Positions 6,801-56,493 of a stretch of DNA of 64,000 nucleotides are shown one piece after another; within the stretch, counting starts at the first letter, position 1, and each line of letters begins with the position of its first letter. A program made the translations under genes and the position numbers. Under the pieces are notes generated by a model that was not told the DNA's origin, did not search any database, and was given only the letters and a program-made list of their open reading frames with translations. Location of the stretch: assembly GCF_000186865.1 (NCBI RefSeq), contig NW_008705563.1, positions 2,073,141 to 2,137,140 on the forward strand, read 5' to 3'. Source of the DNA: Aureococcus anophagefferens. Its lineage: Eukaryota; Sar; Pelagophyceae; Pelagomonadales; Pelagomonadaceae.

Positions 6801-9725
6801 CGGCGCGTGCCTCGGACGCGCGCGCGACGACGACGTTTCGGACGACGCGGCGGTGACGCCCGCGCGGCGGCGGCGGCGCTTCGAGGCCGGCGACGCCGCG
6901 GGGTGCGCGGCCGCGCGGACGGCCGCGCGCGGCGCCGTCGCCGCGGCCTGCGACGTCTTCGCGCGCGCGGCGTTCCCTGGCGCGCCCGCGGCGGCCGCGC
7001 GCCGGGCCGTCGACGACGTCGAGCGCGCGCTCGACGACGAGCTCCGGGGCGGCGGGCGGCGAGCCGCGGAGGCGCTCGACGCGCTCGAGGCGCGCGCGGT
7101 CGCGCTCGCGCGGTGGCGCCTCGTGCGCGACGGCGTGCCCCTGCTCGTCGAGCGGCGCTGGCGCCTCGCGCCGCCGACGAAGGCGGCGACGGCCGCGTAC
7201 CGGGCGGGCCTGCTGCCGCGCGCGTTCGCCGGCCGCGCGCGCGCGAACGGCGGCGCCGCCATGCGCGCCGGCGACTGGCGCGGCTTCCTCGAGGACGCGG
7301 GCGTGCTCGGCGACGGCGGGCCCCGGGCGCTGGGCGAGCTCAAGGCCGACCTCATCTTCACGTCCCTCGCGCGCGACGCGGACGGCGACGACGCGCGCGC
7401 GGACAAGGTCCTGGGCTACGGCCAGTTCCGCCAGGCCATGCGCCAGGCGGCCGTCGCGCTCTACCCCCAGCTCCCGGAGGCCGACGCGCTCAAGCTTTTG
7501 GGCCAGAAGCACATCTTCCCGAAAGCGACGCTGGCGCCCGAGGCCGCCGCGCGGCAGGCGGGCGTGCTCGCGGGCGGCGGGCCGGGGAGGCCGCCGCGGC
7601 TCCTCGACGTGCTCCGCCGCGACGGCGGCGTGCCCCGGGGCGGCGCGGCCCTCGCGGCGTCCCAGCACGCCCTCCGCGCCGCGCGCGACGCCGCCGGTGA
7701 AACAATGGGCGAGGTGCGGCGCGGCGACCAGCACGGCGCGGCGGCGTCGCGCGCGGGCGCGGCGTTCGGCGCGGCGTCGCGCGAGGCCCGCGCCAAGTTC
7801 CGGGCCGCGCGCGAGCGGACGCGGGCGGCCGTGAAGCTCAGCGACGCGGAGCGCGCGGGCGGCGACGACTCCAGCGACGACGAGGCCGTCGCGATCCACG
7901 ACGCCGTCGCGGACGCGGAGCGCGCGATCGCCGAGGAGACGGCGACGAAGCAACGGCGGCGGCTCTGCTCCCTCGCGCGGCTCAAGGCGTCGCTGCTGGA
8001 GGCGCTCGAGGGCGCGGACGCGCCGGACGCGACGGCCCAGGAGCTCGCGCTCCTGAAAGCCGGCGCGGCCGCGCACGACGCCGCGGCCGACGCCGACGCG
8101 GCCGCGGCGCCGCCGTCGGACTGGCACCGCATCGTCGACGTCGCCGCGGCGAGCCTGCGGCGGTCCGCGGACGCCGCGGCGGCGGCCGAGCGGAGCCACG
8201 CGGCGCGGCGGTCCGTGAAGGTCACGCGGAACGTCGACAACGGCTTCGCGTTCCTGGACCTCTTCATCGAGGTCGCCACGTTCTGCTCCGTGGGCCTCAA
8301 GGGCGCCGGGGGCTTCGCCTGGGGCACGGTGCGCCGCTGCGAGTTCGACCCGCGGGGCTGCGCGCCGCCGGAGACCGCGGGCCAGGCGCGGCGGACGCGG
8401 CTGAGCCGCCTCGCGTCGCTGCCCCTCATGACGCTCGACAGCGTCGACGCGTCCCAGGCCTTCTGGGTCTGCGCGGGCCTGTGCCTGATCACGCCGCCCT
8501 ACCTGCTCCGGGCCGTGAGGCAGGCGCGCGCGCAGACCGTCGGTCTCGGGCCCGGCGGCGCGAAGCTCAAGCTGTTCAGCCTGCCCTGGTGCTACTTCCA
8601 GGGCATCAAGGTCTTCGCCGCGGGCCTGGCGCCCGTCATGACGACGCTCTTCTCCGCGCTCGTCTGCGACACCTGCGAGCCGTCGCCGCGGTTCCTGAGC
8701 CGCATCGCCGTGCGCTGTGTGGAATTCAACCACTGGTTTGGTGGTCCTGACCAAACTTGAGAATTCTCTAGCTCGGCCAAATCGAAGTCGATTCGGCTGA
8801 TTTTTGGACGAATCGATTGCTCTCGTCGGGTTCTCGAAGCACAGCCGAAGAGATTGCGTCGAAAATGTCGCATACGCTCACACTGAAGTCGGGTTGAAGA
8901 TTTGAATTCCACAGGCCGTGCGCTGCGCGTCGCGGACGCACGCGGTCTACGTCGCCGCGGCGCTCGCGGGCATCCTGTGCTACTACCCGCTCCTCACCTA
9001 CGTCCAGCCCCAGCTCCAGTTCAAGTCCAAGGCGCTGGACCTCAAGTTCGAGCCCACGTATCTGACGGTGTGGAAATCAAACAGTGAGCTGGGTTATCCC
9101 AACCAAACTTCAGAACTCCCTATCTCGATCAAATCGACGTCGCTTCGGCTGATTTTTGGACGAATCGATTGCTCTCATCGAGTTCTCGAAGCACCGCCAA
9201 AAAGTCTGGTCCCAAACGTTCAATTACGCGCACATTGAAGTCGGGTTGAAGATTTGATTTCCACGCAGGTATCTGACCGTCGTCGCGCAGACGAAGCTCG
9301 CGCTCGCGGTCGTCGTCAACTTCTGGTCCCCGGACCGCGCGCGGCGCTGCGGCGCGAAGCCCAGCGCGTCCCTCGAGGCGGGCTCCGAGCTGTTGCTGAT
9401 TTCCGCGGCGCTCGCGACGGGGCTCGCGGCGCACACCGCGCGGACCGCGCCGTGCATCGTCCCGGAGTTCAACGTCGTCCGCGCGGGCGCGCTCGCCGTC
9501 GCCGCGTCCTTTTTGTGGGGGTCCCTCGCCGCCTTCTGGCTCCAGCGCGCGGAGACGGCCCTGCGCATGGGCAAGCAGAACGCCCGGGGGCTCGGGGCCG
9601 CGGTCTTTCTCGCGCTCGCGGCGGCGACGGTGTACGCGGTGCGGCGCCGCGTCGCGCGGATCAAGCACGACCGCCTCGACCAGGGCGACGACACGCCGAC
9701 GAACAGCCCGCGCGGGGAGGCTTAA
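3841..9725 (+). CDS. Giant multi-pass membrane protein with p25-alpha (TPPP)-like segment; three exons
   Basis: Exons are 3841-8718, 8915-9069 and 9269-9725, together 1829 residues in one frame. Both introns are introners. The first 500 residues and the region from about 560 to 710 hold many hydrophobic segments. More follow near 1470-1600 and in the last exon, so this is a polytopic membrane protein. Residues about 1141-1228 resemble the p25-alpha/TPPP fold: a tryptophan in GDWRGFLEDAGV, then LKADLIFTSLA and GYGQFRQAMRQAAVALYP, matching the DVDIVFSKIK and FEQFQEAL segments of TPPP. That family is tied to microtubules and cilia. An acidic run in the same segment (DADGDD) could be read as an EF-hand. 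The middle is Arg/Ala-rich and probably helical. I do not recognise the whole protein; no transporter or channel signature stands out. Confidence 0.8.
8715..8914 (+). mobile_element. Introner family A, copy 1
   Basis: This 200-bp element is flanked by the 8-bp duplication gccgtgcg at 8707-8714 and 8915-8922. Its termini are inverted repeats (ctgtgtggaattcaa at the left; ttgaattccacag at the right, 2 bp shorter). It carries the family core ggctgatttttggacga. The intron would run 8719-8914 (GT-AG), leaving ctgt plus the duplicated target in the mRNA and the scar AVRC-AVRC in the protein. Reading frames on both sides join in phase. Confidence 0.92.
9066..9268 (+). mobile_element. Introner family A, copy 2
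   Basis: This 203-bp element is flanked by the 8-bp duplication gtatctga at 9058-9065 and 9269-9276. Its termini are the family A repeats (tgtggaaatcaa and ttgatttcca). The intron is 9070-9268, joining ACGGT to GTATCTG in phase and leaving the scar YLTV-YLTV. It lies only 155 nt downstream of copy 1. Confidence 0.92.
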
Positions 9726-9743
9726 GAGCGGGGGTGGGTTGTC

Positions 9744-11249: not shown

Positions 11250-11330
11250 CGTGGGCAGCCTTCAGAATCGGCGATGCAACAATGATGCAACTCCCTTCAC
11301 ATTTCCACACATGTTTCCTTTGTGGCTGAG

Positions 11331-12176: not shown

Positions 12177-12184
12177 CGTGTGTG

Positions 12185-13054: not shown

Positions 13055-14393
13055 CTAGGCGCAGGTGCCCCGCCCGGCGCAGGCGCCGCAGGCCGCGGGC
13101 TTCTCCTCGGGCTTGAAGAGGGCCGCGGTGCCCGCGCCGTACGCGCAGACGTCGTCCTCGGCGCCGCCGGCGTCGACGTTCGCGGAGAAGACGCTCATGG
13201 CGAAGATGAGCGTGCCCTCGTTGATGAGGATGCCCGCGCCGCGGCCGCCGTGGGAGGCGCCGTCCGCGAGCGCGTTGCCCTCGAACGTGACGTTGTGGAC
13301 CACGGACGCGGCGAGCGCCGGCGGCGCGGCGCCTGTCGGATCGGAGCCGAAGGCGAGCGCCGCGCCGCCGCCGTCGAAGACGACGTTTCCGACGAAGGAC
13401 GAGTTCGTCAGGGCCGTCGGGTTCGACGCGTCGACGGCGACGGCGCCGCCGCGGCCGAGCGCGCTGTTGTCGAGGAAGCGGCAGTCGTTCAGAGCGAAAT
13501 TCCCGAGGGGCCCCGCGCGGAGCGCGCCGCCCGCGCCGCGCGCGGAGTTGTTCGCGAAGACGACGCCGTGCACGCCCGCGGCCGCGGCGCCCAAGTGCCC
13601 GGCGCGGGCCGCGTCGCCGCGGCCGAGACCCACGGCGCCGCCGGAGCCCGCGTCGTTGCGTTCGAGCCGCGACGCGGAGAGGCTCAGCGACGCGTTGCCG
13701 CCCTCGAGGAAGAGCGCGCCGCCGTCGCCGACGGCCGAGTTGTGGACGAAGGTCGTCGCGGAGACGCCGACCTCGAGGCCGTAGCCCGCGACCGCGCCGC
13801 CGGAGCCCCGGGCGAGGTTGTCGCGGAAGGCGCAGCCCTCGAAGGCGAGGATCGCGTGGCGGCCGGCGTAGACCGCGCCGCCGTCGCCGAGCGCCGTGTT
13901 GTTCTCGAAGGCGCAGGTGTTCACGCTCAAAAGGCCGCCGCCGCTCGCGACGCCGTGGGCGACGTAGATCGCGCTCCCGTTGCCGGAGGAGGCGGCGTCG
14001 CGGAGCGCGAGGCCCGCGAGGCTCAGGCCGCCGGGGCGGCCGCCGACGTTGAAGATGCGGCCGCCGGCGCCGGAGAGCGCGCAGGGCGCCGCGCAGGCCG
14101 GGCCGGCCTCGATCTCCAGCAGCCGCCCGTCGATCGTGGGCAGCGGCGACCCGGCGAGCGTGATGCTGTCGTTGAGGAAGATGCGACCGACCTCCGGCTC
14201 CTCCATCGCCTCCACGAGCTCCGGGAGCGTGGCGACCTAATAAGCATGACGGTGACGATTTCTCATTGTTTTCCCACCCCAAATCTCTCGAAAATCGTCA
14301 CGGCCACAGGACGCTGGTGGCGACGTAGACCGTCTTGAGGTTCTCCGCCGACGCCAGCGCGGCGAGCGCGACGGCGCGTTGGAGGAGCGCCAT
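13055..14393 (-). CDS. Secreted beta-helix (polymorphic outer-membrane-protein-like) surface protein; two exons
   Basis: Exon 1 (14393-14313) encodes a signal peptide (MALLQRAVALAALASAE) and the start of the first strand. Exon 2 (14236-13055) encodes the rest, for 420 residues in total. The body is a right-handed parallel beta-helix with Pmp-type repeats: GGAV or GGAL motifs alternating with F-x-x-N or F-x-x-D motifs (AFENNTALGDGGAVY, CAFRDNLARGSGGAV, NNSARGAGGAL). Known family members are secreted or surface adhesin-like proteins. The protein ends in a small Cys-rich tail (CGACAGRGTCA). The single intron is a family B introner placed just after the signal peptide. Confidence 0.85.
14237..14316 (-). 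mobile_element. Introner family B, copy 1 (80 bp)
   Basis: On the coding strand the element begins cagcgtcc and ends ttattag. It is flanked by the 8-bp duplication gtcgccac (14317-14324 and 14229-14236 on the reverse strand). Internal inverted repeats (cgtgacgattt / ggtgacgattt) could form a hairpin. The intron is 14312-14237 (76 nt, GT-AG). It leaves the four codons that produce VATS-VATL at the junction. It closely matches the element at 26861-26940. Confidence 0.88.
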
Positions 14394-16941: not shown

Positions 16942-19247
16942 ATGTGCAAGGCCGGCGCCTCGACCGCCGGCGCGGCCCTGGCCGTGGTGCTCACGTGCCT
17001 CTGCGTCTTCGTCATGGGCGGCGTCGTCTTCGGTATTTCGAGCTTCTATCCCGTCCTCTACGGCCAGGGCCTCTACGAGGGCGAGTGCGCCGACCTCGAG
17101 GCCTGCCCGGCGGAGCGGCCCTGCTGCGCCAAGCAGCGGAGCTCCGTCGTCTTCCTCTCGTCGGCGTGCCTCTTCGCCGCCGACGGAATAATGGTCCTCT
17201 ACGGCGAGCTCAACGACCGCGCGGGCCCGGCCGCGTGTTTGGCGTCCGGGTCGCTCCTCGCCGTCGCGTCGTTCCTGGGCCTCTGGCTGGCGGCGTGGTG
17301 GGATTTAGGCGCGGCGGCCTGGTTCGCGGCCCTCCTCGGCCTCGGCCTCGCCGGGCCCGGCGTCTTCATGGGCTGCCTGGGCTTCGGGGGCGCGTACCCG
17401 GCCGTCGAGCCCGTCGTGTCGGCCATCGCCGCGGCCATGTGGGACTCGTCGGCGATCGTCTTCCTCATCTGGGCCTTCGCCGCCAAGTTTTTGCCCCTCG
17501 CGCACGTCGCCTTCGCCTGGGCGCTCGGCGCGGCGGTCCTGGGCTTCGCGGCGTGGCGATTGCTCAAGTCCGCGGCCGCCGGCGGCGACGGCGACCGCGG
17601 CGCGCCCCTCCTCGCCGAGGGCGCGCCCAAGGCGCCGCCGCCGCGGCTCCGCGACGTCTTCGCGCGGCGCGACTGGGCCTGGCTCCTCGCCTTCATGGCG
17701 CTCTACAACCTGAAGTCGAGCGTCTACATCGAGACCGTCAGTCTCGAGGTCCGCGCGCTCGGCGCGTTCTCCGAGGCCCAGGCGCGGCGCTTCGACGTCT
17801 TCTTCGACGTCGCCTTCCCCGCGGGCGGTCTGGCCACGTCCGTCGTCGCCGCCGCGTGCCTCCAGCGCTGGTCCAAGCGGCCCAAGGCCTACTTTGCGGT
17901 CGTCGTCGCGCTGGCCGTCGCGTTCGTCGCCGTCCAGCTCGCGCCCGCGCGTCCGGCGCAGTACGCCGCCGCCGCGCTCTTCGGACCCGCGCGGACGTTC
18001 CAGTGGGCGGCCTACTTCCACTTCGTCGAGTCGCAGCCCGACCGGTTCCCGCCCGCGCTCGTCGGCCGGCTCCTCGGCTACGGGAACTTGGTCATCGCGG
18101 TCGTCGGCGACGGCCTGCCCTACGCGTGCGCGGCCTACGCCGGCGGCGCGCCCTGGCCGCCGTCCGCCGCGGGCCGCTACGTCGCGCTGCACGGCGCGCT
18201 GGCCGCGGCCGTCGTCGCCGCGGCCGCGGGCCTCTGCCGCGAGCTGCGGCGGCCGGAGGGCCTCGCGGAGCTCCACGTCTTCGACATGGACGGCACGCTC
18301 CTCGTGAGTCGGGGCCGCGAGATCATCGTCGACGAGGCCACGGGCGCGCGCGCGGCCGTGCACCCCTTGATCGAGGCGCACGTGACGAAGCCGCCGCGCC
18401 ACTCGTCGTCCTACGCGTTCTGCGGCGAGGAGGACGCGCACGGCGACCCCTTCGATTTGATAGAAAACGCCGTCGTCGTCCCCGGCGCCGCCGCGGCCAT
18501 GCGCGCGGCCGCCGCGCGGCCCGGCTGCGGCGTCGCCGTGCTGACGGCGCGCGCGCACGACGCGGCGTGGCTCGCGGACAAGCTCTCGCAGAAGCTCGGC
18601 CTCCCGCGCGGCGCGCTGTCGCCGGCGCGCGTCCTCTGCGTCTACCACGCGGCCTTCGGCGCGTCCGGGTCGACGTCCGCGCGGAAGAACGCGGCGCTGC
18701 TCCGGCTCGTCGCGCAAACGCGGCCCCGGCGCGTCGTCTTCTACGACGACGTCGCGGCGAACGTGGCGGGCGCGCGGCGCCTCTTCGACGCGCGCGGCGA
18801 CCTGCAGGGCAGGACAAGAGAGCGAAATTCCCAACTTCAAAGGCTCATATCTCGGCCGTTTTCCACTCGTTTCGGCTGATTTTTGGACGAGCGATCATCT
18901 TTCGGAACGGCCTCGACGCGTGGATGCTTTTTCCGGAACGCACGCGCGCGGAACACTCACGTTGAAGCGACGTTGAATCTCTCTTGTCCTGCCCAGGCGA
19001 CCTGCCGCCCCTCGAGACGGTCCTCGTGCCTCTGGCCGAGAGCCTCGCGGCGCTCGAGGCCGCCGGCGAGGACGTCGTCGACGCGCTCCACCCGCAGTGC
19101 CGCGACTCGACGGGGTCCCTGAACCCGCTCGTCATGGACCTCCAGGACCAGCTCGCCAAGGAGCCCCTCCTCCGCCGCCTCTCCTCGGGCTCCATCCACG
19201 CCGACGCGTCGCCGGGCCCGCCGAACGGCCGCAAGAGCCCGCCCTAG
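16942..19247 (+). CDS. Fusion of an MFS transporter (SLC43/FMP42-like) with a C-terminal HAD-like domain; two exons
   Basis: Exons are 16942-18808 and 18997-19247, giving 705 residues. Residues 1 to about 430 hold about twelve membrane spans in a layout like SLC43/FMP42 carriers, including a Cys-rich loop after helix 1 (CADLEACPAERPCCAK). A cytosolic HAD-superfamily domain follows without a break. It has motif I FDMDGTL, motif II VLTARAHD, a lysine in ARKNAALL and the acidic motif VFYDDVAANV. The HAD part resembles the nucleic-acid-repair-associated HAD group, but function is unknown. The intron is an A-related introner with a GC 5' splice site. Upstream open frame overlaps the TENA gene antisense, so the ATG at 16942 is preferred. 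Confidence 0.85.
18805..18996 (+). mobile_element. Introner C (A-related, CAGGG termini, GC-AG intron)
   Basis: This 192-bp element is flanked by the duplication gcgacctg at 18797-18804 and 18997-19004. The terminal inverted repeats are cagggcaggacaagag and, at the other end, the complement of ctgggcaggacaagag. The internal core cggctgatttttggacga is shared with family A. By the same 4-nt rule the intron is 18809-18996 and starts with GC. Frames join in phase across it (GDLQ-GDL). Confidence 0.88.
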
Positions 19248-19417: not shown

Positions 19418-22400
19418 ATGGCGACCGAGACGGCCGAAGAGGCGCGCCTGCGCGAGCTTTTGATGGCGAGCGACAGCGACAGCGACGACGGCGAGCACCC
19501 GCTTCCGCCGCGCGAGAGCGAGGGCAGCGTCGAGGCGGTGGAGCCCGAGCCGGCGCCGCCGACGCCGCCGCCGACCTACGAGGATCTGCTCGCCGGGGCG
19601 AGCAACACACCGGATGCAGCGGCCGAGGAGCGCGCGCGCGTCGAGGAAGCGCGCCGCGACGCGGAGAGACGCGACGCGGAGACGCGGGCCGCCGAGGAGG
19701 CGCAGAAGGCGCGGCGCGCGGCGGAGGCCAAGGTCGTGGCGGAGATGCGCGTCGCCGAGGACGCGCGGCGCGCGGCGGAGGCCCAGGCCGCCGAGGACGC
19801 GCGGCGCGCGGCGGAGGCCCAGGCCGCCGAGGACGCGCGGCGCGCGGCGGAGGCCCAGGCCGCCGAGGAGGCGCGGCGCGCGGCGGAGGCCCGGGCCGCC
19901 GAGGAGGCGCGGCGCGCGGCGGAGGCCCGGGCCGCCGAGGACGCGGAGGCGGCGCGGCGCCGCGCTGAGGCCGAAGCCCGCGCCGAGGCCGACGCGCGCG
20001 TCGCGGCGGCGGCGCGCGCGGCCGAGGCGCCGCCGGCCTACGAGCCGCCGGTCGAGGCCGCGCGGAACCCGTTCGTCGACGACGCGGCCGCCGACGTCGA
20101 GGCGGCGCCGCGCATGCCCGTGCTGAGCGTCGCGGACATGGGGCTCGAGGAGGAGGCCGACGAGGACGAGCTCGACTTCGCCGCGCCTCCCGGCGACGAC
20201 ACGGCGGGCGACGAGGCGCTCGCGCGCGCGCTCGCGGGCGACGGCGCGGGCGACGAGGCGCTCGCGCGGGCCCTCGCGGGCGAGGGCGCGGGCGACGAGG
20301 CGCTCGCGCGGGCCCTCGCGGTCGGCGACGCGGCGCCCCCCGAGGACGCGGGCGACGACGCGGACCTCGCCGCGGCGATCGCGGCGTCGCTCGCCGTCGA
20401 CGCGCCGTCGGCGCCCGCGGGCGAGGCCGCGCGCGCGCCGGCGTCCTGGGGCGTCTGCGGCCAGGCGTCGGGCCTCGCCTTCGACGAGGGCCGGAGCTAC
20501 GCGGCGCCGCTACGAGTGGACGCGGCGTGGGCCGACGTCGAGGCCCTGGTCGAGTCCGTGCTGGCGGCCCACGGCCTCGTGCGGTCGTCGCTGCCCGCGC
20601 TCGTCGACCCGTCGTCGTCGCTCTGCGAGGACCTGCCCTGTTTTTTAGCGGACGCGCGCGGCGCGCACCCCTTTGGTTTAGCCGTCGGAGGCGGCGCGAC
20701 GCCGGACAAGCGGCGCGTGCTCTTCGTCGGCGCGCGCGACCCCGGCAGGCCCTGGACCCGCGAGGCCGACGGCGCGCGGGCCGCGGCGCTCCGCGCGGTG
20801 CGCGAGGCCGTCGCCGAGGCGGATTTGGCGGAGCCGACGGTGTCGACGGCGCCGAAGACCGACGTCTGCGACGTCTTCTTAGCCGATCTGCAGCGGGCCT
20901 ACTTCGTGGAGCTCGAGGCCGCTTTGAAGGACGTCGCGGACCCGCTCGACGCGCTCGCGCACCGGGAAGAACTGAAAGTCGCGCGGCTCGCCGTGCTCCT
21001 GCGGCCGACGTTCGACGCCGCGGGCTTTTCGCCGCCGCCGCCGAGCCGGGCGCCGCCGCTCGCGAGCTTCCCGCTCGACTTGGCGCCCGGCGACGGGCTC
21101 GGCGCGTTCCCGGACGGGCCCGAGGCCGCCGCGCGGCGCATTAGAAACGACGTCGGCGACGCGGGCGACGCCGCGGCGTTCCTCGCGGCGGCGCTCCGAT
21201 CCGTCGCGGCGCGGGCGGCCCGGGAGGCGCGCGCGCGCGTGGACCGCAAGAACAGGAGCGTCGCCGCGCGGCTGCGCAACGCCGAGACCTGCGCCGACGG
21301 CCTGGTCGACGCGCTGCGGGCCCGGCGCCTCGCGGCGCCCCGGCCGGCGCGCGGCGCCGAGGCCCAGTTCTCGAGCTTGTTCCGCGTCGCCAACACCGCC
21401 CGCGACGCGCTTTTGTACGACTGCGGCGCCGTGGACGCGACGTCGGTCTGCGAACACGGCTCCGGCCCGCCGCGCGCGGGGCGGCTCTACGTGGCGTCCT
21501 CGGGCGTCTTTTTCCACTCGCCGGGCCTCGCGGGCTTCGGCGCGCGCCAGATCGTCCTCCCCTACTACGCCCTCAAGCCGCCGGAGGTCGTCGACGGCCC
21601 GCTGCCCGGCGGCGGCCTCGCGGCCGTGGCGACGAAGCTCGCCGCGGCGCTCGTGCGCGCCACGGACGGCCGGCTGGGCCGCCTCCGCTTCGTCGACGAC
21701 TGTGTGGAAATCAACCAGTGGAACGCCCTGTCCAGCAAAAACTTCAAACCTCTCTATCTCGGTCAAATCGAAGTCGATTCGGCTGATTTTTGGACGAATC
21801 GATTGCTCTCGTTGAGTTCTCGAAGCACAGCTGAAGAGTCTGGTCCGAACCGTTCGATTACGCGCACATCGAAGTCGGGTTGAAGATTTGATTTCCACAC
21901 AGGTCGACGAGAGCGGCCGCGCGACGGCGTTCCTCGTGCCGCCGTCGCCGCTCGACGCGGACCACGCGCGGCAGATCGCGGGCCTCGCGGCGCGCGCCGC
22001 GGCGCTGGACGCGGCGGCGCGGGCCGCGCGCGCGGTGTCCGCCGCGCCGTCGAGCCCGCGCGGGCCCGCGTCGGAGGCGGAGATACTGGCGCGCGTGCGG
22101 CGCCTCTCGGAGCTGTCCGCGCGGAACTCGCGGCTCCTGCGCGCCGTCGCCGACGAGCCGCCGCCGCCGGCGACGCCGCTGGACCTGCTCTCCGGCGTCG
22201 ACGTCCTCGAGGCGGGCCGGCGCGCGACCGCGGCCGTCGTCGAGGCGGGCCGCCGCGCGTCCGCGGCCGTGCTCCCGGAGAACGAGGAGGCGCGCGACAA
22301 GCGCGACCTCATCGCGCGCCTCGGTGCGACCCCGCCGGGCGACGCGGAGCCCGAGGCGCCGCCGGCCTACGACGCCGCCGCGCCGCAGCGCGGGAACCTC

Positions 22401-25831: not shown

Positions 25832-27680
25832 ATGAACGCCATCTCGGCGTACCTCGCTTCCGCGACCCCGTCGGTGGGCTGCCTGGGCGACTGCACGCTC
25901 GACGACGACGGCCCCGAGGCCGCGGCGCCGAGCGACGAGTTCCGGCGCCTGCCGCCCGACGACGCGCCGCCGCCCCGGGAGACGGTCTTCGAGCGCATGG
26001 CCTTCAAGACCATCTACGTGCAGCGCGCGAGGCTCAAACCCGATGGCTTCTTCGCTTTACTCTCCGACGCGACGGGCGTCGGCGACCTCGCGCGCAACGC
26101 CTTTGGCGACGCGCTCTACGCGCTCCACTGCGAGGCCGGCGACCGGCGGCGCGGCGTCGCGTTTAAGGCCGCGGAGCGCGCCGTGAAGCGCGTCAAGTTG
26201 GCGCGCGAGACCTTCGAGCGCGTCGTCGCGTCGTCCCACTTCGACGGCGAGTTCGTCACGCCCGACGACTTCAAGCGCCTGCTCTTCGGCGTCGTGCGGC
26301 GCATCTACGAGGAGGACGCGCGCAAGGACGCCGTCAAGCTCGACTTCGACCACGGCTTCGGCGACGCGATGGAACTTTTGGACAAGACGGGCGAGGGCGA
26401 CGAGTCGTTCCGGCGCTACGACTCCGCCGGGAACGGCAGGATCGACGTCGACGAGGCCTGCGCGATGGCGCTCGTCGTCGGAGGCGCCTTCGACGCCTTC
26501 ATCGACGCGTCGCTCGCGGGGGGCGGCGGCGGCACTCTGACGGCGGACGACTACAACGTCGCGCTGCGAAAGCTCGGCTTCGGCGACGTCTGCAAGGTGT
26601 TCCAGGGCCAGTTCGTCGAAGGCGTCTTCCGCAGGATCGACAACGACGGCGACGGGCGCATCGCCCTGCCGGAGTTTCTGGTCAACGCCGCGCGGCTCCT
26701 GCGGCCCGTGTCCTTCGAGCGCGCCGTCTCCGAGGCCGAGGGCTACCCGGGCTGGGTGCCGCTCGGCGGCGCGTCCGCGGAAGACATCAACGCGCTGGTG
26801 TCGACGCTGCAGACGGGCGACGTGCTCCTGAGCCGCCTCGACGACGACATGGGCCAGTTCCAGCGTCCCGTGGCCGCGACGATGTTCGAGAGATTTCGGC
26901 TGGGAAAACGATGAAACATCGTTACCGTCGTGCTCGGTAGGCCAGTTCATCCAGTTCAGCATGGACTCGCCCTGGTCGCACGCGGGCGTCGTGCTCCGGC
27001 TCGGGTCGTCGCACGCGGGCGGCACGCCGAACGAGAAGACGGAGGACCTGCTCAAGCGGTTCCCCTTCCGGCGGCGGTCGCACAAATTTTGCGCGCCGGG
27101 GTATTGCCGATGTTTCGACTGGGGCGGCGGCGCGTTCGCGGCGTCGTGCCTCAAGTGCGAGGGCGTGCTCGTGCTCGAGTCGACGGGCGAGGGCATCCAC
27201 GTCTACGATCTGGCGCACCGCTACTTCGAGTCGGCCTTTTCGTCGAGGATCCGCGCGCTCGCCGTGCGCCGCGTCTCCGTGGAGCGCACGCCCTACGACG
27301 CCGCGCGCGCGGCGGACTTCTGCCGCGCGGTCCGCGGCTCGCTCTACAGCACGGTCCGCGACGAGCTCAAGGAGGCCGTGTCCTACCACCTCGCGGACGA
27401 GGCCGGCGCCGCGCGGCGCGACGCCGCCGCCAAGGATCCGTCCCACTTCTGCTCCAAGGTGAGCTACGGCTTCTTCCAGCACATGGGCTGGTGCGACGAC
27501 GAGCGCAACCCGTCGACGGTCATGCCCTCCGACTTTGCGTCCAACGACGCGTCGCACCGCGGCGTGCTCAACCGCGACGTCGCCCTCGCGGACGGCGCCC
27601 ACTTCCTCCCGCTCCAGGTCATCTGGACGCCGCAGCTCGACGCGCCGCTCCCCTGGCGGCCCGCGAAGAAGGCGAGGTAA
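25832..27680 (+). CDS. EF-hand protein fused to a permuted papain-like (YiiX/NlpC-P60 type) domain; two exons
   Basis: Exons are 25832-26864 and 26941-27680, giving 590 residues. The first half has two EF-hand loops: DSAGNGRIDVDEA (one weak position) and the canonical DNDGDGRIALPEF, with degenerate helices before them. The second half has the order of a circularly permuted papain-like hydrolase. Its histidine is in SPWSHAGVVLR, an acidic residue follows in VLVLESTGEGIHVYDL, and the presumed nucleophile is in HFCSKVSYGFFQHMGW. In bacteria YiiX-type enzymes are amidases or lipid-modifying enzymes. A calcium-controlled hydrolase is inferred. The intron is a family B introner at the start of the catalytic half. 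Confidence 0.82.
26861..26940 (+). mobile_element. Introner family B, copy 2 (80 bp)
   Basis: This 80-bp element begins cagcgtcccgtggccg and ends gctcggtag. The duplication gccagttc flanks it at 26853-26860 and 26941-26948. The intron is 26865-26940 (76 nt). It has the same length as copy 1 and is nearly identical in sequence, although the host genes are unrelated. The scar is QFQR-QF. Confidence 0.92.
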
Positions 27681-31738: not shown

Positions 31739-33564
31739 ATGCGCATCTCCGCGACGACGCTCTGCCTCGCGTCGTGCTGCGTCGCCTTCGTGCCGCAGCG
31801 ACGCATACGGACACAATCTCTGCGGCGCGCCGCGACGAAGGAGGTCGTCGTCGTCGGCGGCGGCTGGGCCGGCTACAGCGCCGCTGCCGCCCTGAGCACG
31901 TCGCCCGATGTCAAGGTGACGATCCTCGAGGCGTCGCCGAAAGCGTCCGGCGGCCTCGCCGGCGGCTGGCGCACGGCCGGCGGCCGCGCCGTCGAGGCCG
32001 GGATCCACGGGTTCTGGCGCGAGTACCGAAATACCTTCGACGCCATCGAGAAGATCGGCCTGCGGGTCGACGACGTGCTGTCGGACTACTCGCCGTCCGT
32101 GCTCTACTCGCGGCGCGGCAAGGTCGCGACCGGCGTCGCGTGTCGTTTCGCGCCCGGAAGCCATCCGTCGCTTCGTAGGTCGCGACGGCGCCGGTCCTCG
32201 GCGCGCCGCCGCCGCGCGCGTCGTCGGCCGCGGGCGCGGTCGCGCGGCTCGCGGCGCTCGTGCCTCCCCCGCTCGACACGGCGCTCCTCGCGGACTTCGC
32301 GCCGGGGAGCGTGCTCAACGCCGCGGACCGCGCGTCGGCCGTGGGCCTGCTCGCGCCCTGGGCCGACTTCGGCCAGGAGGACGACGCGTCCTGGGCGCGC
32401 TACGACGCCATCGACGCGGAAACCTTGTTTAAAGACCGCGGCGGCGTGTCGGCGAACCTCTACGACGAGCTCGTCGCGCCCATGCTCCACGTGCTGCCCA
32501 TGGCGCCGGGCGACGACGTCTCCGCGGCCGCGGCGCTGAGCTGCTTCCACGTGTTCGCGCTCCAGACGCGCGGCGCCTTCGACGTGAAGTGGTGCGCGGG
32601 GGGCATCAGCGAGAAGATCTTCGCGCCCTGGCAGGACCAGCTCGAGGGCCGCGGCGTCGCCATCGCCGGCGGGTCCCGCGTGGAATCGATCGCGCGCGGC
32701 GACGACGGAACGTTCGAGGTGGCCGTGCAGGGCGGCGCGGCGCGGCGCGCGGACGCCGTCGTCTTCGCCGTCGGCGGCGTCTCGGCGGCGAAGCTGTCCG
32801 CCGCGTCGCCGGGCCTCCTCGGCGACGAGAACCTCGCGGCGCTGCGGGGCGTGACCTGCGTCGCCGCGCGGCTCTGGCTGAAGCCGTCGCCGGAGACGAC
32901 GGGGCTCCGGGGCGGGCGCCACGGCGCGACGCGCGCGCCGCGGAGGGTCGCGGACGAGATGCGCGACTCGCCCGTCGCCGTCGTCGGGCCCGGGGTCTTG
33001 CCGGAGCTCGCGGAGACGGGCTTCTGCGTCTACGACTTGGACCGCATGCACGACGAGCAGCAGGCGGCGGACGACACGTGCTGCCTGGAGGTCGACTTCT
33101 ACCGCGCGGGCGACGTCGCGGACTTGGACGACGACGCCGTCGCGGACGTCGCGCTCCGGGCCGTCGCGGGCGCGCTCGGCCTCGCGCGGCCCTTGGACGC
33201 CGCGGACCTCGTCGACGTGGCGGTCGTCCGCGCGCGCGACGCGGTGTCCCACTTCGACGTCGGCTCGGCGGCGGCGTCGCCGCCGACGCGGCTCGGGCCC
33301 GGCGTCTACGCGGCGGGCGACTACGTGGACCGTTCCGGCCACGCGTCCTGGTCCACGGAGAAGGCCGTCGTCACGGGGCGCCAGTGCGCCGCGGCGCTCG
33401 CGGCGGACCTCGGCCTCGCGGGCGTCGAGGCGGACATCGAGCCCGCGGCGCGGGACACGGCCCAGCTCGCGGCGCTGCGCGCCGCGGCGCGCGCGCTCCG
33501 GAGCCTGCCGAACTTCCCCGAGCTCCCGCCGCCGGCGCCCTGGGCGTCGCTGTTGCGGAGGTAG
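31739..33564 (+). CDS. Plastid FAD-dependent amine oxidase / carotenoid-desaturase-like oxidoreductase; two exons
   Basis: Exons are 31739-32134 and 32179-33564, giving 593 residues. The leader MRISATTLCLASCCVAFVP combines a signal peptide with an AFVP plastid motif. The dinucleotide-binding motif VVVVGGGWAGYSAAAAL starts at about residue 36, followed by LEASPKASGGLAGGWRT and HGFWREYRN. The C-terminal FAD contact is GVYAAGDYVDRSGHASWSTEKAVVTG. This is the phytoene/zeta-carotene-desaturase-like fold; plant relatives are uncharacterised plastid amine-oxidase-like proteins. The substrate is unknown. The intron is a 44-nt candidate introner. Confidence 0.85.
32131..32178 (+). mobile_element. Candidate introner D (48 bp)
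   Basis: The duplication gtcgcgac occurs at 32123-32130 and 32179-32186. Four nt (cggc) then precede a GT, and the intron 32135-32178 ends in TAG, exactly the geometry of the other introners. Frames join in phase (VATG-VATA). No convincing terminal inverted repeat is seen, so the assignment rests on the duplication and spacing. Confidence 0.65.
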
Positions 33565-38097: not shown

Positions 38098-39987
38098 TCA
38101 CACCGCCCGCGTCGCCGCGGCCACGACCGCGGGTCCGAGCATGGCGTCGAGGTTCTTCGCGTCGGCGCCGAAGAACACGGTGCTCTTGTCGTTGAGCGCG
38201 GCGCCCGTCTTCTCGATGACGGCGAGCTTCACGGCGACGTCGCTCGCCTCGAGGAGGTCCGCGGCCTTCTTCGCGCCCTCGGCCTTGATCTTCGTCGCCT
38301 CGGCCTCCCCGCGCGCGCGGATCGTCTCGCTCTCCGCCTGTGTGGAAATCAACCAGTGAGCTGGGACGTCGGGGCCAAACTTCTGAAACCTCTAGCTCGG
38401 TCAAATCGAAGTCGATTCGGCTGATTTTTGGACGAATCGATTGCTCTCGTCGAGTTCTCGAAGCACGGCGAAATAGTCTGGTCCAAACCGTTCGATTACG
38501 CGCACATTGAAGTCGGGTTGAAGATTTGATTTCCACACAGCTCTCCGCGAGGCCGCGCGCCTCGATGAGCGCGGCCGACGCGCGGCCGCGGGCCACCGTC
38601 TCGAACTTCTGGGCCTCGGCGGCGGCGACGGCGCCCTGGGCGAGCGACGACTGGAGCGTGCGGTCGCTCGGCACCGCCGCGACGATGTTGATGGAGATGA
38701 TGGACACGCCGTACGTCGCGGTCACCGCGTTCGCGTGGTCGACGCACGTCTGGAGGCGGTCGATGTCGAAGAGCGGCGAACTCTTCTGGGCGACGGCCGC
38801 GTGGTCCCCGGCGGGGTCCTCTACCGCCGTCGCGTCCGCGAGCGGCGGTTCGACGCCCTTCTGCACGACGGTGGCGACGTTGAACGTGTCGCTGTACTGC
38901 ACCGCGCCGATGAAGGCCGCGAGCGACGCCTCGGCCTGCTTGAGCACGTCGTTCGTGAGCTTGCCGATGTCGCCGATGTCGGAGCTGGCCGACATGTCCT
39001 GGCCGCCGGCGCTGATCGTCTCCGCGGAGTTCTTGGCCGCGATGTCGACGTTCGTGATGCGCCAAATTACGGTCGCGTCGACGGCCATGAGCACGTTGTC
39101 CGCGGACGTCGCCTCGATGCGCTTCATGTTCGACGACTGGATCTTGCAGGAGATGTACCTACGGCGACGTTCTTCCCGGTCGGAATCCCCCGAACCGACG
39201 GTCCCTCTCTCGCGCATCGCGGCGGGCGACGTCGACGTTCTTCCCGGTCGGAATCCCCCGAACGCGCGACGGCGGACGTTCTTCCCGGTCGGAATCCCCC
39301 TCCGAATCGGAACGCCGGGGCCCGCTTCTGGAACTTGTGGTTCCGGTGCGTCAGCAGGTAGGTCTGGCCGCCCTGGAGGATCTCCTGGCGTCCGTTGTCC
39401 TCCGTGACCGCCGCGTAGCCCTCGTCGACGGTCACGAGCGTCAGCGGCCCCATGCGGATGACGTTGTTGTTCAGGTCGAAGGACTCGCGGTAGACGAGCA
39501 CGGGGTTGCGCCACTGGTGCATGCCCGGCGGCAGCAAGACGGGCTGGCCCTGGTTGAGCACGAAGCCGATGTGGCCCTGCTCGACGACGAGCAGCGACCG
39601 GTCGCCGTGGACGATCGTGTTCACGCCGAAGGACTGGGGCTTGGAATAGGTGTAGAAGGGGTCGCGGATGAGATGGACGCCGACCTTGTGGAAGTGGAAG
39701 CCGCCGCGGCCGTCCTGCACGGGCATGACGTGGCCCTCGGGCACCGTGAACGTCTTAAAGCAGCCGCACACAAAACACGGGCAGCATAAAAGCGTGTTGA
39801 CGCACACGCTCCAGGGGTCCGAGTTCGCCTCGACGCCGTCGATCTCGTCCGGGCTCGACAGCCGGTAGGACGTATCCAACAGGTTCTCGTTCTTCAGCAC
39901 CTGGTAGGCCGCCGTGTCCTCGGGCCGGTTCGCCTGGTCGCGCTCCATGGCCATGCTCTTCGGCTCGTCCATGACTTTTCCTTGCAT
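38098..39987 (-). CDS. SPFH/Band-7 (flotillin/stomatin-like) protein; three exons
   Basis: Exons on the reverse strand are 39987-39314, 39158-38537 and 38337-38098, giving 511 residues in phase. The ATG at 39987 (MQGKVMDEPKSMAMERD) is preferred over an upstream GTG. The N-terminus has a Cys-rich, possibly palmitoylated segment (CVNTLLCCPCFVCGCF). A beta-rich region follows (VVEQGHIGFVLNQGQ). A Band-7/SPFH domain comes next (ADNVLMAVDATVIWRI, VLKQAEASLAAFIGAV, YGVSIISINIVAAVPS) and then the Ala/Glu-rich flotillin-type helix (GRASAALIEARGLAES, ARGEAEATKIKAEGAKKAADL). Such proteins scaffold membrane microdomains. Intron 1 holds tandem repeats and intron 2 is an antisense introner. Confidence 0.85.
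38338..38540 (+). mobile_element. Introner family A, copy 4, antisense to its host gene
   Basis: This 203-bp element has perfect ctgtgtggaaatcaa inverted repeats and the duplication ctctccgc at 38330-38337 and 38541-38548. Its core reads in the plus direction, while the host SPFH gene is on the minus strand. The intron is 38536-38338 on the minus strand (199 nt, GT-AG), using the element's right end as donor. The scar is AESC-AESE. Confidence 0.93.
39167..39300. repeat. Three exact 25-bp repeats within SPFH intron 1
   Basis: The unit acgttcttcccggtcgg followed by aatccccc occurs at 39167-39191, 39235-39259 and 39276-39300. The intron is 39313-39159 (155 nt) on the minus strand, so the repeats fill most of it. 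Confidence 0.9.
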
Positions 39988-48918: not shown

Positions 48919-48948
48919 GAGCGAGAGGCGCCTAACCTCCCTTTTTTG

Positions 48949-50961: not shown

Positions 50962-51064
50962 GCTATCGGGAGGGCAAGGCAGGCAACATCGCAGCCATCG
51001 GAGCCGGGGGCTGCTTGTTCAAGAAGTCGACGGTGCCGCGCAGCCTCGGACTATGAGCCCATAA

Positions 51065-51589: not shown

Positions 51590-51673
51590 GACTCGGTTTT
51601 CGACAGCGGACTATTGATAGAGGGGGGGCGGTGGGGAGTCTCGCGCGGCGGCCGCGCCCAACGGCGGCGGGGC

Positions 51674-52398: not shown

Positions 52399-52579
52399 CT
52401 TCTCGGCGGCGCGCTCGCTCGGCTCTGCGCACCCCTGGGTTTAAGCAGCGGAGCTGACCGTGAGCGCTCGCTCGGCTGAGCCGGTGTTGAACTGCATGCT
52501 GGCTGCGCTGTGGCTCGAGCATGGCCGGCTTGTAGTTGCCGTCCGAGAGCGTCTCCGCGCTTCATAAAACACAGCAACG
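52399..52579. promoter_or_regulatory. Short divergent promoter, UEV / NYN-LOTUS
   Basis: Only 181 bp separate the two divergent start codons, so promoter elements must be shared or interleaved. No specific motif is evident. Confidence 0.45.
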
Positions 52580-53590
52580 ATGCTCCTCCGCCGCTCGCTC
52601 AAGCGCACGGCCCGAGCGCTGCAGACGCGCGGCTTCTTCTGGGGCAACAACAGCGGGGCCGGCGGCGCGGGCGAGGAGAAGCTGCGCCTCGCCCTCGAGG
52701 CCGTGACCGCGCAGCAGGCGAAGCTCAACGACACCGTCGCGGAGATGAAGGCGCGGCAGACCGTCCTCGCGGAGGCGGCGGCGGGCGGCAACGACCGGGG
52801 AGAGGAGCCCCAGCTCGCGATCCTGATCGACGCGGACAACACGAGCCACAACAGCATCGACCTCATCATGCGCGAGACCGCGCGCTTCGGCACGCGGTCC
52901 GCGCGGCGCATCTACGGCGACTGGGCGAGCCCGCAGCTCGCGCCCTGGCGCGCGCGCATCGCCGAGCACAGCCTCGTGCCCGTGCAGCAGTTCAGCCACG
53001 GCGGCAAGAACGCGACGGACAGCGCTTTGATCATCGACGCCATGGACCTGCTGCACAGCAACCGCTACCAGGCTTTTGTATTAGTGAGCTCCGACGCGGA
53101 CTTCACCAGGCTGGCGACGCGCATCCGCGAGCACCCGTCGACGGTCGTCGGCGTCGGCCGCGCGCAGACGCCCAAGGGCTTCGTCAACGCGTGCAACGCC
53201 TTCATCACCATCGAGACGCTCGAGAAGGACGCGCGGCGCCGGCCGTCGGCGCCGTCGCCGAGCGGCAAGCCCTTCAAGGCCGGCGCCGTCGACGCGGAGG
53301 CCCGCGCGCGCGCGCTCGACGCGCTCCGCGAGGTCGTCGACGAGTGCGCGGACGAGGCCGGCTGGAGTCCGCTGACGCTCGTGGGCGCGCGCATGCTCGA
53401 GCGCGACCCGTCCTTCGACCCGCGCACCATCGCCCACAGCCCCAAGCTGAACCTGCTCTTCAAGGCCATGCCCGACGACTACGAGTACGAGCTCAAGGGC
53501 ACCGCGGCCTTCGTCCGCCCGAGGGTCCACCGCCTCTTCGACTCCGACGACGAGGGCAAGGCCAAGAAGGAGGCCAAGGGCGACGAGTAA
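52580..53590 (+). CDS. NYN-domain (PIN-like) nuclease with C-terminal OST-HTH/LOTUS-like domain, mitochondrial leader
   Basis: The 336-residue protein begins with a basic mitochondrial-type presequence (MLLRRSLKRTARALQTRGFF) and a short coiled coil. A NYN domain follows: AILIDADNTS with the first metal-binding Asp pair, RRIYGDWAS, HGGKNATDSALIIDAMDLLH and FVLVSSDADFTRLATRIRE, all acidic positions present. A LOTUS/OST-HTH-like winged helix is seen near the C-terminus (ALREVVDECADEAGWSPLTLVGARM, NLLFKAMPDDYEY). This layout is common in bacterial LabA/DUF88 proteins and suggests an organellar RNase. It is intronless. Confidence 0.88.
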   Translation: MLLRRSLKRTARALQTRGFFWGNNSGAGGAGEEKLRLALEAVTAQQAKLNDTVAEMKARQTVLAEAAAGGNDRGEEPQLAILIDADNTSHNSIDLIMRETARFGTRSARRIYGDWASPQLAPWRARIAEHSLVPVQQFSHGGKNATDSALIIDAMDLLHSNRYQAFVLVSSDADFTRLATRIREHPSTVVGVGRAQTPKGFVNACNAFITIETLEKDARRRPSAPSPSGKPFKAGAVDAEARARALDALREVVDECADEAGWSPLTLVGARMLERDPSFDPRTIAHSPKLNLLFKAMPDDYEYELKGTAAFVRPRVHRLFDSDDEGKAKKEAKGDE

Positions 53591-53765
53591 CAATTGCCTC
53601 TTCTCTCCCGAGGCCTCTCCCGACCCTCGGGAGGGAAACGTTGAACGTCTCGAAGCCGAGGTTGCCGCACAGCGCAAGCGCCGATCGCGCCGAGCTCCAG
53701 CCCAGCTCGCCGTCGAAGTCGACTATACAAATCCGCGCCGTCCGCAGCCTCGCAGCACACCAGCC

Positions 53766-55394
53766 ATGGGTGAGCCCATCGACATCATGGGCGACGGGTC
53801 CATCATGAAGACCATCGTCAAGGCGGCCCCCGCGGAGAACACGGCGTCGCCGCAGGACGGCCACAAGGTCAAGGTCCACTACGTGGGCACGCTGACCGCC
53901 GACGGCTCCAAGTTCGACAGCTCGCGGGACCGCGACTCGCCCTTCGACTTCACCGTGGGCAGCGGCGTCATCACGGGCTGGTCCGAGGCCGTGCCGACGA
54001 TGAAGGTCGGCGAAATCGCCAAGTTCACGATCTGCTCGGACAAGGCCTACGGCGCGTCGGGCTCGCCGCCGAAGATCCCGCCGAACGCGAGCCTGGACTT
54101 CGAGATCGAGCTGCTGAGCTTCACGGACCGCGACGACGTCTGCCGCGACGGTAGCCTGCTGAAGAAGAAGGTGAAGCGGAGCGACGCCGATTGGAAGATG
54201 CCCAACGACCGCTGCGACGTCGAGCTCAAGGTCAAAGGGAGCGACGGCGACTGGAAGGCCGCGTCCTGGCCCGCCGCGGGCCCGCCGCCCGCCGGCGTGC
54301 CCGCCAAGGTGCGCGAGGGCGTGCACGGCATGAAGAAGGGCGAGGTCGCGAACTTTCTGGTCACGGCCGAGGACGCGGAGGTCGAGCTCGAGGTCGTGTC
54401 GTGGGTCGAGAACGAGGACTGCGTCCGCGACGCGCCCGGCGCCGTCGTCAAGCGCGTCAAGCGCGAGCGGGCTGAGGGCGAGGACGACTGGAAGACGCCC
54501 CAGGACGAGGGCAAGGTCACGGTCCGGGGTTCCGTGTGGAAGCGCGGCGACGACTCCGTCCGCGTCGACTACGGCGCGCTCGACTCGGAAGACTCCTCGA
54601 CGTGGACCGTCGACGAGGACCGCAACGCCGACGGGGGCGCGTCGGTCTGCGGCGGCGTCGAGGCCGTCGTGAAGAAGATGAAGGTCGGGGAGGTCGCGAC
54701 GGCGGCGATCGCGGCGACGCACGGCTTCGCGGACGGCCCCTTGGCGGGCTGCGCGCTCGACTGCGAGCTCGAGCTGGTGGGCCTCGTCGAGGAGCCGCCG
54801 ACCTGGGAGCTCAAGGGCGCCGCGAAGATCGCCGCGTGCGAGGCGAAGAAGGGCCTCGGGAACGCGCACGTGGCCGCGGGCGACTTCTCGCGCGCGAGCC
54901 GCCGCTACGGCGCGGCGCTCAACATCGCCGCGTCGGACTACGACCTCGACGACGCCCAGAAGGCGGAGCTCGGCAAGGTCTCCGCGGCCCTCAAGCTGAA
55001 CCGGGCCATGTGCCACCTGAAATTGGAGAAGTGGGCCGACGCGGACAAGGACTGCCGCGAGGTCCTCGAGAAGGACCCGGCCAACCTCAAGGCTTTGTTC
55101 CGCCGCGGCAAGGCGAAGCTCGCGCTCGACGACTGGGTCGAGGCCAAGGCGCTCTTCAAGAAGGCGCTGGCGATCGACGCGGCCAACAAGGACGCGCGCC
55201 GCGGCCTCCTCGACATCGCGAAGAAGGAGAAGGCCCACAAGGAGAAGGAGAAGAAGCTCTACGCGGGCCGCAAGCTCTTCAAGGACGAGAAGAAGAAGAA
55301 GTCCCCGAACCCTCCCGTCGCCTTCGAGCACCAGCCGGGCCCGGACGCGGTCCCCGCCGACGCGCCCCAGCCCTCCCTCCCGCCCCAGCAGTGA
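53766..55394 (+). CDS. FKBP-type peptidyl-prolyl isomerase with three FKBP units and TPRs
   Basis: The 542-residue protein is a co-chaperone like FKBP4/5 or plant ROF1. FKBP unit 1 (about residues 25-115) keeps the FK506-site residues: VHYVGTL, SPFDFTVGSGVITGW, KAYGASG. Units 2 and 3 (about 125-220 and 235-340) are degenerate, with HGMKKGEVANFLV and VKKMKVGEVATAAI retained. A TPR region follows (EAKKGLGNAHVAAGDFSRA, KLNRAMCHLKLEKW, KALFRRGKAKLALDDWVEA), where such proteins bind the Hsp90 C-terminus, and the tail is Lys-rich. It is cytosolic or nuclear by the absence of a leader. Its stop lies 10 bp from the convergent RBR gene. Confidence 0.93.
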   Translation: MGEPIDIMGDGSIMKTIVKAAPAENTASPQDGHKVKVHYVGTLTADGSKFDSSRDRDSPFDFTVGSGVITGWSEAVPTMKVGEIAKFTICSDKAYGASGSPPKIPPNASLDFEIELLSFTDRDDVCRDGSLLKKKVKRSDADWKMPNDRCDVELKVKGSDGDWKAASWPAAGPPPAGVPAKVREGVHGMKKGEVANFLVTAEDAEVELEVVSWVENEDCVRDAPGAVVKRVKRERAEGEDDWKTPQDEGKVTVRGSVWKRGDDSVRVDYGALDSEDSSTWTVDEDRNADGGASVCGGVEAVVKKMKVGEVATAAIAATHGFADGPLAGCALDCELELVGLVEEPPTWELKGAAKIAACEAKKGLGNAHVAAGDFSRASRRYGAALNIAASDYDLDDAQKAELGKVSAALKLNRAMCHLKLEKWADADKDCREVLEKDPANLKALFRRGKAKLALDDWVEAKALFKKALAIDAANKDARRGLLDIAKKEKAHKEKEKKLYAGRKLFKDEKKKKSPNPPVAFEHQPGPDAVPADAPQPSLPPQQ

Positions 55395-55404
55395 GTCGGC
55401 GTAA

Positions 55405-56014
55405 TTACCGCCGCCACCTCCGCGCGGGGGTCACGGGCCGCCCCGTCTTGTTGTCGAAGAAGAGGTGGTGGCTCGGCGTGCAGCCGCAGCGCGCGCCGGG
55501 CGCGAGGCAGACGTAGCAGAACTCGTAGCCGCAGAGACACCGCATCTTGTCGCACCCGCTGGCTTTCACCACGCCCGCGCCGCAGCGCGCGCAGCGCCGG
55601 ATGCCCGCCGTTCGCAGGTAGTCGCGCGTCCGCCTCGCGGCCTCCTCGTCGTCGCCCGCGGCCGCGGCGTCCTCGCACGAGCCCTCGTGCCACGGCTTGC
55701 CGCAGCAGAGGCACGACGTTTTGTTGCACCGAGCGCAGGAGAGCCGCGGCGGGCCGTCCGCGGGCGTCCACGTGCAGACAAAGCCGCAGTCGGGAGTTGG
55801 ACACCGGTGGAGGTCCGGGTTCGCGTCGACCGCCCGGTCCAGAGAGAACCGCGTCGCGCGCTCCGCCGCCGAGCTGCCGCCGACGCCCCGCAGGTCGAGG
55901 TCCGCGAGCGGCGTCCTGCAGTCGGGGCACTGGGCGCCGTCGCGGTCCGACGCGGCCACGAGCCGCTCGGCGCACTCGCGGTGGAGCTCGTGGCCGCACG
56001 CGCGCAGCCGGAGC
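55405..56014 (-). CDS. RBR-type (RING-IBR-RING) E3 ubiquitin ligase, last exon; upstream exon not resolved
   Basis: The exon from the introner to the stop encodes the second half of RING1 (CGHELHREC and CPDC), an IBR (RCPTPDCGFVC, CARCNKTSCLCCGKPWHEGSC) and RING2/Rcat (RRCARCGAGVVKASGCDKMRCLCGYEFCYVC). The catalytic cysteine is in GCDKM. RBR ligases form a thioester with ubiquitin on that residue. The first cysteines of RING1 should lie upstream of the introner at 56015-56217. The frame there that joins in phase (GEDEVERRRRLR) carries no cysteine, so another exon or intron probably remains in 56226-56490. Confidence 0.82.
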
Positions 56015-56217
56015 CTCTGTGGAAATCAAATCTTCAACCCGACTTCAATGTGTGCGTATTTGAATGTTTTGACACGAGCACTTCCGCCGTGCTTCGAGAA
56101 CTCGCTGAGAGCAATCGATTCGTCCAAAAATCAGCCGAATCGACTTCGATTTGACCGAGCTAGAGCATTCTCAAGTTTGGCCCCGACGTCCCAGCTCACT
56201 GGTTGATTTCCACACAG
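56015..56217 (-). mobile_element. Introner family A, copy 5
   Basis: This 203-bp element lies in reverse orientation, the same sense as the RBR gene. The duplication gccggagc flanks it at 56007-56014 and 56218-56225. Termini are ctgtgtggaaatcaa and ttgatttccacagag on the coding strand. The intron is 56213-56015 (199 nt). It is very similar to copy 4. Confidence 0.92.
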
Positions 56218-56493
56218 GCCGGAGCCGGCGACGGCGCTCGACCTCGTCTTCGCCGACGCGGACCGCCTCGCCGCGCCGCTCCGGTCCCCGTCGCCGCTGC
56301 GGCTCGCGTCGCCGGGCTCCTGGACGACCTAACGTCACCGTGGGCCAGCGTGGGCCGCGCGCGGGCCTTTTACGGGGACGGGGCGGCGAGGGGCTCGGTG
56401 CGTCGGGCGCGGGCCGCGAGGGGAAGCGCTGGAGGGTTCATGCGGTGGGGTTCGTAGACAGGGGAGCTTGGGGGATGCGTCGTGGTCCGAGGC

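Follow-up and report, generated by a model that had tools for sequence, protein, structure and literature searches.

A window of 64,000 nucleotides (the whole stretch of DNA analysed; GC content 71%) from contig NW_008705563.1 of the pelagophyte Aureococcus anophagefferens (RefSeq assembly GCF_000186865.1, positions 2,073,141 to 2,137,140) contains short elements that are distributed over several unrelated genes and flanked by 8-bp target-site duplications (TSDs). Our analysis indicates with high confidence that these are Introner Elements of A. anophagefferens, for which the TSD would provide the 5' splice site (donor) and splicing would add 0 nt to the mRNA. Transposon-made introns with 8-bp TSDs are already known in this species, as an earlier note on this DNA had also held, and what that note observed is real and belongs to a known system. 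It had, however, placed the donor 4 nt inside each element, with 12 nt always left in the mRNA. For the A. anophagefferens genome this 12-nt rule is most likely wrong, since the TSD, read on the gene strand, opens with GT or GC (hereafter GY) at 9/9 supported window sites and at nearly all of a larger set of genomic copies. Splicing is deduced from the DNA sequence throughout.

The geometry that had been described, i.e., an 8-bp duplication, a GY 4 nt inside the element and an AG as its end, is indeed present at all ten places: exact 8-bp direct repeats surround stretches of 48-203 bp (10/10), AG on the gene strand closes the element (10/10), and the dinucleotide 4 nt inside is GT in 8/10 and GC in 2/10 (18805 and 58485). 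Nine of the ten elements are real; they are credible because they belong to repeated families, have a lower GC content than the exons (8/9), carry inverted ends and interrupt a reading frame. The tenth place, 58485, is indistinguishable from chance. Strands of the window sites were assigned by codon periodicity, that of 56015 mainly via a RING/IBR match, and genes on the minus strand host 3/9 supported elements (14237, 38338 and 56015). The sites and the introns predicted at them are as follows:

Element 8715-8914 (200 bp), plus strand: family A introner, TSD GCCGTGCG at 8707-8714 and 8915-8922; predicted intron 8707-8914, GC-AG, codon phase 0.
Span 9058-9276, element 9066-9268 (203 bp), plus strand: family A introner, TSD GTATCTGA; predicted intron 9058-9268, GT-AG, phase 2, in the same gene as the 8707 intron.
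Span 14229-14324, element 14237-14316 (80 bp), minus strand: family B introner, gene-strand TSD GTCGCCAC; predicted intron 14324 down to 14237, GT-AG, phase 0.
Span 18797-19004, element 18805-18996 (192 bp), plus strand: family C introner, TSD GCGACCTG; predicted intron 18797-18996, GC-AG, phase 1, host with a HAD-hydrolase-like domain.
Span 21692-21910, element 21700-21902 (203 bp), plus strand: family A introner, TSD GTCGACGA; predicted intron 21692-21902, GT-AG, phase 0.
Span 26853-26948, element 26861-26940 (80 bp), plus strand: family B introner, TSD GCCAGTTC; predicted intron 26853-26940, GC-AG, phase 1, within a C92-amidase-like region (weak profile match).
Span 32123-32186, element 32131-32178 (48 bp), plus strand: element with ends like family B, TSD GTCGCGAC; predicted intron 32123-32178, GT-AG, phase 0, within the GK-VATAPVL motif of an amine-oxidase-type flavoprotein.
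Span 38330-38548, element 38338-38540 (203 bp), minus strand: family A introner in opposite orientation, gene-strand TSD GCGGAGAG; predicted intron 38548 down to 38338, GC-AG, phase 0, in a band-7/SPFH protein.
Span 56007-56225, element 56015-56217 (203 bp), minus strand: family A introner, gene-strand TSD GCTCCGGC; predicted intron 56225 down to 56015, GC-AG, with a RING/IBR-type protein downstream and a less certain upstream exon.
58477-58552, minus strand: tentative tenth site, a GC-rich 60-bp stretch (58485-58544) flanked by two copies of GGCGATGC; unsupported as introner.

A single large gene holds both family A introners of 8707-9276, whose starts are separated by 351 bp; the donor is GC in the first and GT in the second, which makes them a handy natural pair for comparison. 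Acceptors end in CAG or TAG, and once, at 56015, in GAG.

If the donor were internal, the TSD would remain exonic and its first bases would be free to vary; they are nearly always GY, and the donor is therefore most likely the TSD start. A blind test covers 67 family A copies, i.e., five from the window and 62 of 75 additional loci taken from contigs C1 and C2 among the 100 listed of 774 end matches; in these 62 the two copies of a full 8-bp TSD differ at no more than one position, and the other 13 were set aside for this test. With the strand called from codon periodicity alone, GY stands at the TSD start in 65/67 and AG at the element end in 67/67 copies, and the opposite strand of the same copies has GY in 23/67 and AG in 55/67, as symmetric ends would give. 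Forty-four copies have GY on the called strand alone, 21 have it on both strands and two on the other strand alone. At other offsets of the joined exons the mean frequency of GY is 0.197, which gives a binomial P of ~2e-43 for 65/67. For the 44 copies with a strand margin >0.1 the count is 42/44. In twelve copies just one of the two ends has AG, and all of these are called on the AG strand; independent of the codon score, GY is found on the AG strand in 12/12 and on the non-AG strand in 3/12. Family B and C copies, located by a scan for low-GC islands in which AG was required and GY was not, have GY in 10/10 (list read by eye). In a wider set of 90 sites covering families A, B and C, TSDs were aligned with a score that favours GY; counts of "all GY" from such alignments are not independent, and the codon-periodicity strand call and the copies with a one-ended AG are therefore the fair tests. 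The TSD starts with GC in 38/67 copies, and beyond GY the donor context shows little consensus. The sequence signature expected of a co-opted donor is present in this genome, and exact splicing is predicted from it.

Transposition, selection and splicing would together explain the observed families, TSDs, inverted ends, GY rule and preserved frame. A short non-autonomous DNA transposon resembling a miniature inverted-repeat transposable element (MITE) would have been inserted by a transposase, and the 8-bp target duplicated. Of the two splice sites, the element itself would supply the 3' one alone, with its terminal AG, and the 5' splice site would be whichever GT or GC by chance opened the duplicated target on the gene strand. 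The intron would thus begin with the first TSD copy, while the second would stay exonic, so that the spliced product would equal the mRNA before insertion, with 0 nt added. The frame would be kept because nothing is added; that 12 is divisible by three would play no part. Insertions into targets without GY at this position hardly occur in the sample and were presumably removed by selection. Family A would work in both orientations because its inverted ends are alike.

Comparison with homologous proteins is in line with junctions that add nothing. At 32123 the GK-VATAPVL motif is gapless in 60/60 aligned homologues (of 280 matches), and at 38330 the four extra columns are absent in 60/60 aligned proteins (of 191 matches), some of which have wider gaps there. 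At 9058, 3/3 homologues that reach across are gapless, and at 8707 this holds for 3/4, the fourth being the NCBI gene model P0242 (JL721_403 of A. anophagefferens, 98% identical to a window protein over 59% of the query, in agreement with the species), which at 9058 reads into the element. Outside the window, a zero-nt join at a Ca-ATPase locus (L073) is gapless through the phosphorylation motif DKTGT and scores 89 bits, against 81.8 bits, with a gap, when 12 nt are added. At 26853 the amidase profile reaches 17.8 bits with the zero-nt join, below the Pfam cut-off of 27, and finds no match with the +12 join. Near-identical proteins (P0001, P0121 and P0122) cross sites without extra residues, and in these empty alleles and spliced transcripts are indistinguishable. 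P0121 and P0122 are environmental proteins 99% identical to the host of 38330-38548 and run straight through the site; P0124 runs out of frame at 38330, apparently into the element, which would place filled copies in the same data. Public data may hold filled alongside empty alleles, or spliced alongside unspliced forms.

The internal GY is common as well. Counted from the TSD start, as are all offsets here, GY is present at +12 in 85/90 sites of families A, B and C and at all ten window places. The earlier note saw in the 4-nt offset a device that keeps the frame wherever an insertion lands. Among 67 loci with standard spacing, though, the frame-breaking GY at +10 is present in 66 and that at +12 in 67; +10 is as well kept as +12, and there is therefore no sign of special guarding of the latter. 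Two loci have no GY at a multiple of three within the first 40 nt (offsets 4, 11 and 13 at L021; 11 and 13 at L049, which has a run of N upstream), and at both the reading frame runs on open through the junction when the join adds zero nt. L075 lacks a GY at +12 and has in-frame GYs deeper inside, L061 has GY at +11 with poor coding support, and L073 and L091 keep it at +12. Given the equal conservation of +10 and +12, the 4-nt offset appears to be a side effect of the inverted end rather than a device for keeping the frame.

The alternative that survives best is a mixed use of donors, in which the TSD start prevails and the GY at +12 is chosen at times, the latter yielding a length variant of four residues. 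Both dinucleotides occur at nearly all copies (GT or GC at +12 in 85/90), and the small consensus at the TSD donor beyond GY makes competition between donors plausible. However, an internal site that worked well alone would be expected to tolerate TSDs that do not start with GY, which make up only 2/67; we consider such mixed use unlikely, if worth keeping in mind. It is more doubtful still that the elements carry a built-in second donor, a GY 12 nt further in, with either donor keeping the frame. Were this true, hundreds of genes could have a four-residue variant, or the second site could rescue splicing when the first donor decays.

The reading of the earlier note, in which the element carries both splice sites and four codons remain in the mRNA, can draw on the same GY at +12 (ten window places, 85/90 family sites), on gene model P0242, which uses +12 at 8707, and on a +12 case reported for a metagenome-assembled genome (MAG) of Aureococcus sp. 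(Gozashti et al., 2022, Fig. 2F,G; PMC9860276). It leaves the start of the TSD free, yet GY is found there in 65/67 blind calls; it does not fit L021 and L049, which lack a frame-keeping GY within the first 40 nt, nor the equal conservation of +10 and +12. Furthermore, the RNA-seq section of Gozashti et al. (PMC9860276) excludes genus-level TARA metagenomes, and the example of Fig. 2F comes from a TARA MAG. We regard this reading as very improbable. Marginally less probable even than this is that GY at the TSD start reflects a target preference of the transposase instead of co-option of a splice site: the 34% GY on the non-gene strand does exceed 20%, but the bias tracks the gene strand (65 vs 23 of 67), which a transposase inserting near-symmetric elements is not expected to read, GY follows the lone AG end in 12/12, and the far TSD end has GY in 26/90 sites.

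Several observations weigh against exact splicing from the co-opted TSD donor. Model P0242 reads AVRC-AVRC at 8707, an exact +12 junction at a TSD of the GC type, and a +12 junction with four extra residues has been reported for the Aureococcus sp. MAG (PMC9860276). Gapless homologues show the ancestral state and not how a filled copy is spliced today. Both misses in the strand test, L033 and L039, have no GY on the called strand and GY on the other, and both are among the 44 calls with larger margins. Strand margins are small in most copies, GY lies on both strands in 21/67, and the same is true of three of the nine window sites (14229, 32123 and 56007), which are hence less informative. The 34% GY on the non-gene strand (23/67) is above 20% (P 0.004), which would allow for a mild target preference on top of selection. 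For L021 and L049 the strand came from the GY-favouring score. Finally, transposase searches of the genome (hAT twice, KDZ and MULE) found none, with a working positive control for MULE only; the hAT domains PF05699 and PF04937 gave no match in the genome in searches without a working positive control.

The window elements represent three families, A, B and C. The earlier note had described them as differing in family and length (48-203 bp); its term "unrelated" was overstated. Family A (~203 bp) has five window copies (8715, 9066, 21700, 38338 and 56015) with ends CTGTGTGGAAATC and GATTTCCACACAG; family B (~80 bp) has two, 14237 and 26861, which comparison places in one family; and family C (192 bp) has one, 18805. 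Families A and C share a 24-nt core identical at 23/24 positions, so not all window families are unrelated. The 48-bp element at 32131 (69% GC) has no BLAST match to other window elements and is possibly, from its ends, a relative of family B. Terminal inverted repeats are perfect over 15 nt in 21700-21902 and extend over 16 nt in 18805-18996, beginning 2 nt inside either end. Relative to its host gene, 38338 has the opposite orientation to 21700.

In the genome searched (49 Mb, 86 contigs) the 15-nt family A end has 774 exact matches and the 14-nt family C end 569, with both ends of one copy possibly counted, and the reversed pattern has 0 matches in either case. A strict pattern for family B has 3 matches, which, being one strict form, gives no copy number for B. 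When at most three mismatches and shifted starts are allowed under the GY-favouring score, 74/75 fetched family A loci show a TSD, with L069 one-ended and L093 doubtful. At L093 a kinase match of 31.9 bits was obtained after joining by hand; its TSD being doubtful, it was not used. The TSD copies at L042 (131-333), GTTTAGCG and GCCTCGCG, differ at three positions and the first is AT-richer, as expected of an older insertion with an intronic first copy; the coding score is poor on the strand used. Three family A copies (L071, L072 and L081) lie in an identical TSD, GCGCGCGC, which perhaps hints at a target preference for alternating GC.

The tenth place illustrates how little a repeat pair proves on its own. 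The bare rule (an 8-mer pair, AG before the second copy, 40-400 bp apart) returns 316 plus-strand pairs in the window, real ones included; in DNA of 71% GC with so many chance-prone pairs, an 8-mer repeat pair alone is weak proof, and 58485 is therefore not counted. As an introner, 58485-58544 was rejected: its GC content is 0.77, its ends are not inverted copies of each other and BLAST matches it to none of the other elements. At 19709-19940, coding repeats with a spacing of 36 bp produce many chance 8-mer pairs preceded by AG. A combination of 8-mer repeats and inverted ends was dropped as a detector, with 285 window matches at 8 of 12; a reversed-sequence control for the inverted-end scan has no value, since reversing the sequence leaves this test unchanged.

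That introners give rise to new introns is well documented, and how they do so hinges on which dinucleotide becomes the donor; our data speak for a GT or GC co-opted from the target and for exact splicing. Iwata and Gotoh (2011; PMC3033335) give a proportion of 39.6% GC-AG introns in A. anophagefferens and call their origin an enigma. GC donors are thus usable in this species, and the co-opted-GY rule offers an explanation for this proportion, the donor sampling the GC and GT of GC-rich codons. With GC at 38/67 TSD starts and P0242 taking +12 exactly at a GC TSD, we suspect, from the one model inspected, that some +12 junctions stem from gene models that avoid GC donors. Our data suggest that a +12 junction in a gene model can be an artefact when the predictor disfavours GC as a donor. 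The published case of Gozashti et al. may likewise be an artefact of GT-only gene models.

The window elements share features with several known systems. The introners of Micromonas pusilla are MITE-like introns with one co-opted splice site; a co-opted site is predicted for the window elements as well, and TSD length and families probably differ. MITEs of the hAT type have an 8-bp TSD, as do the elements described here, and families B and C begin with CAG, which we take to be hAT-like ends; a hAT transposase domain was, in contrast, not found in the genome by searches without a working control. The closest counterparts are the Introner Elements of A. anophagefferens itself. Huff, Zilberman and Roy, writing in Nature in 2016 (538:533), are said to have described introners of this alga with TSDs and terminal inverted repeats inserted in both orientations, the element bringing one splice site and the duplicated target lending the other, with exact splicing. 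Co-option itself is therefore already known, and the credit for it reportedly belongs to them. A review likewise describes co-option of splice sites by introners and insertion in both orientations (PMC10228655), and a length peak of 210 bp is given for A. anophagefferens introners in another paper (PMC9481584). The window elements resemble these in species, ~200-bp class, TSDs, inverted ends and both orientations, and no difference is established; the copy counts and the blind strand test come from the present analysis.

A second counterpart is the +12 case of Gozashti et al. (2022, Fig. 2F; PMC9860276), in which an 8-bp TSD and 4 bp of the element are proposed to add four residues to a protein of the Aureococcus sp. 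MAG; it is a family 4 introner of TARA_AOS_82_MAG_00129, located at 3289-3365 of scaffold 000000001056. In the partly surveyed literature that names both Aureococcus and introner, no later revisit of this case was found. A built-in second donor, if real, would reconcile it with the exact splicing of Huff and co-workers. It resembles our elements in its 8-bp TSD plus 4 bp and in its 77-bp span, which is near the length of family B, and it puts the +12 reading in print. In A. anophagefferens, by contrast, the TSD start is almost always GY, and an exact junction is both available and favoured.

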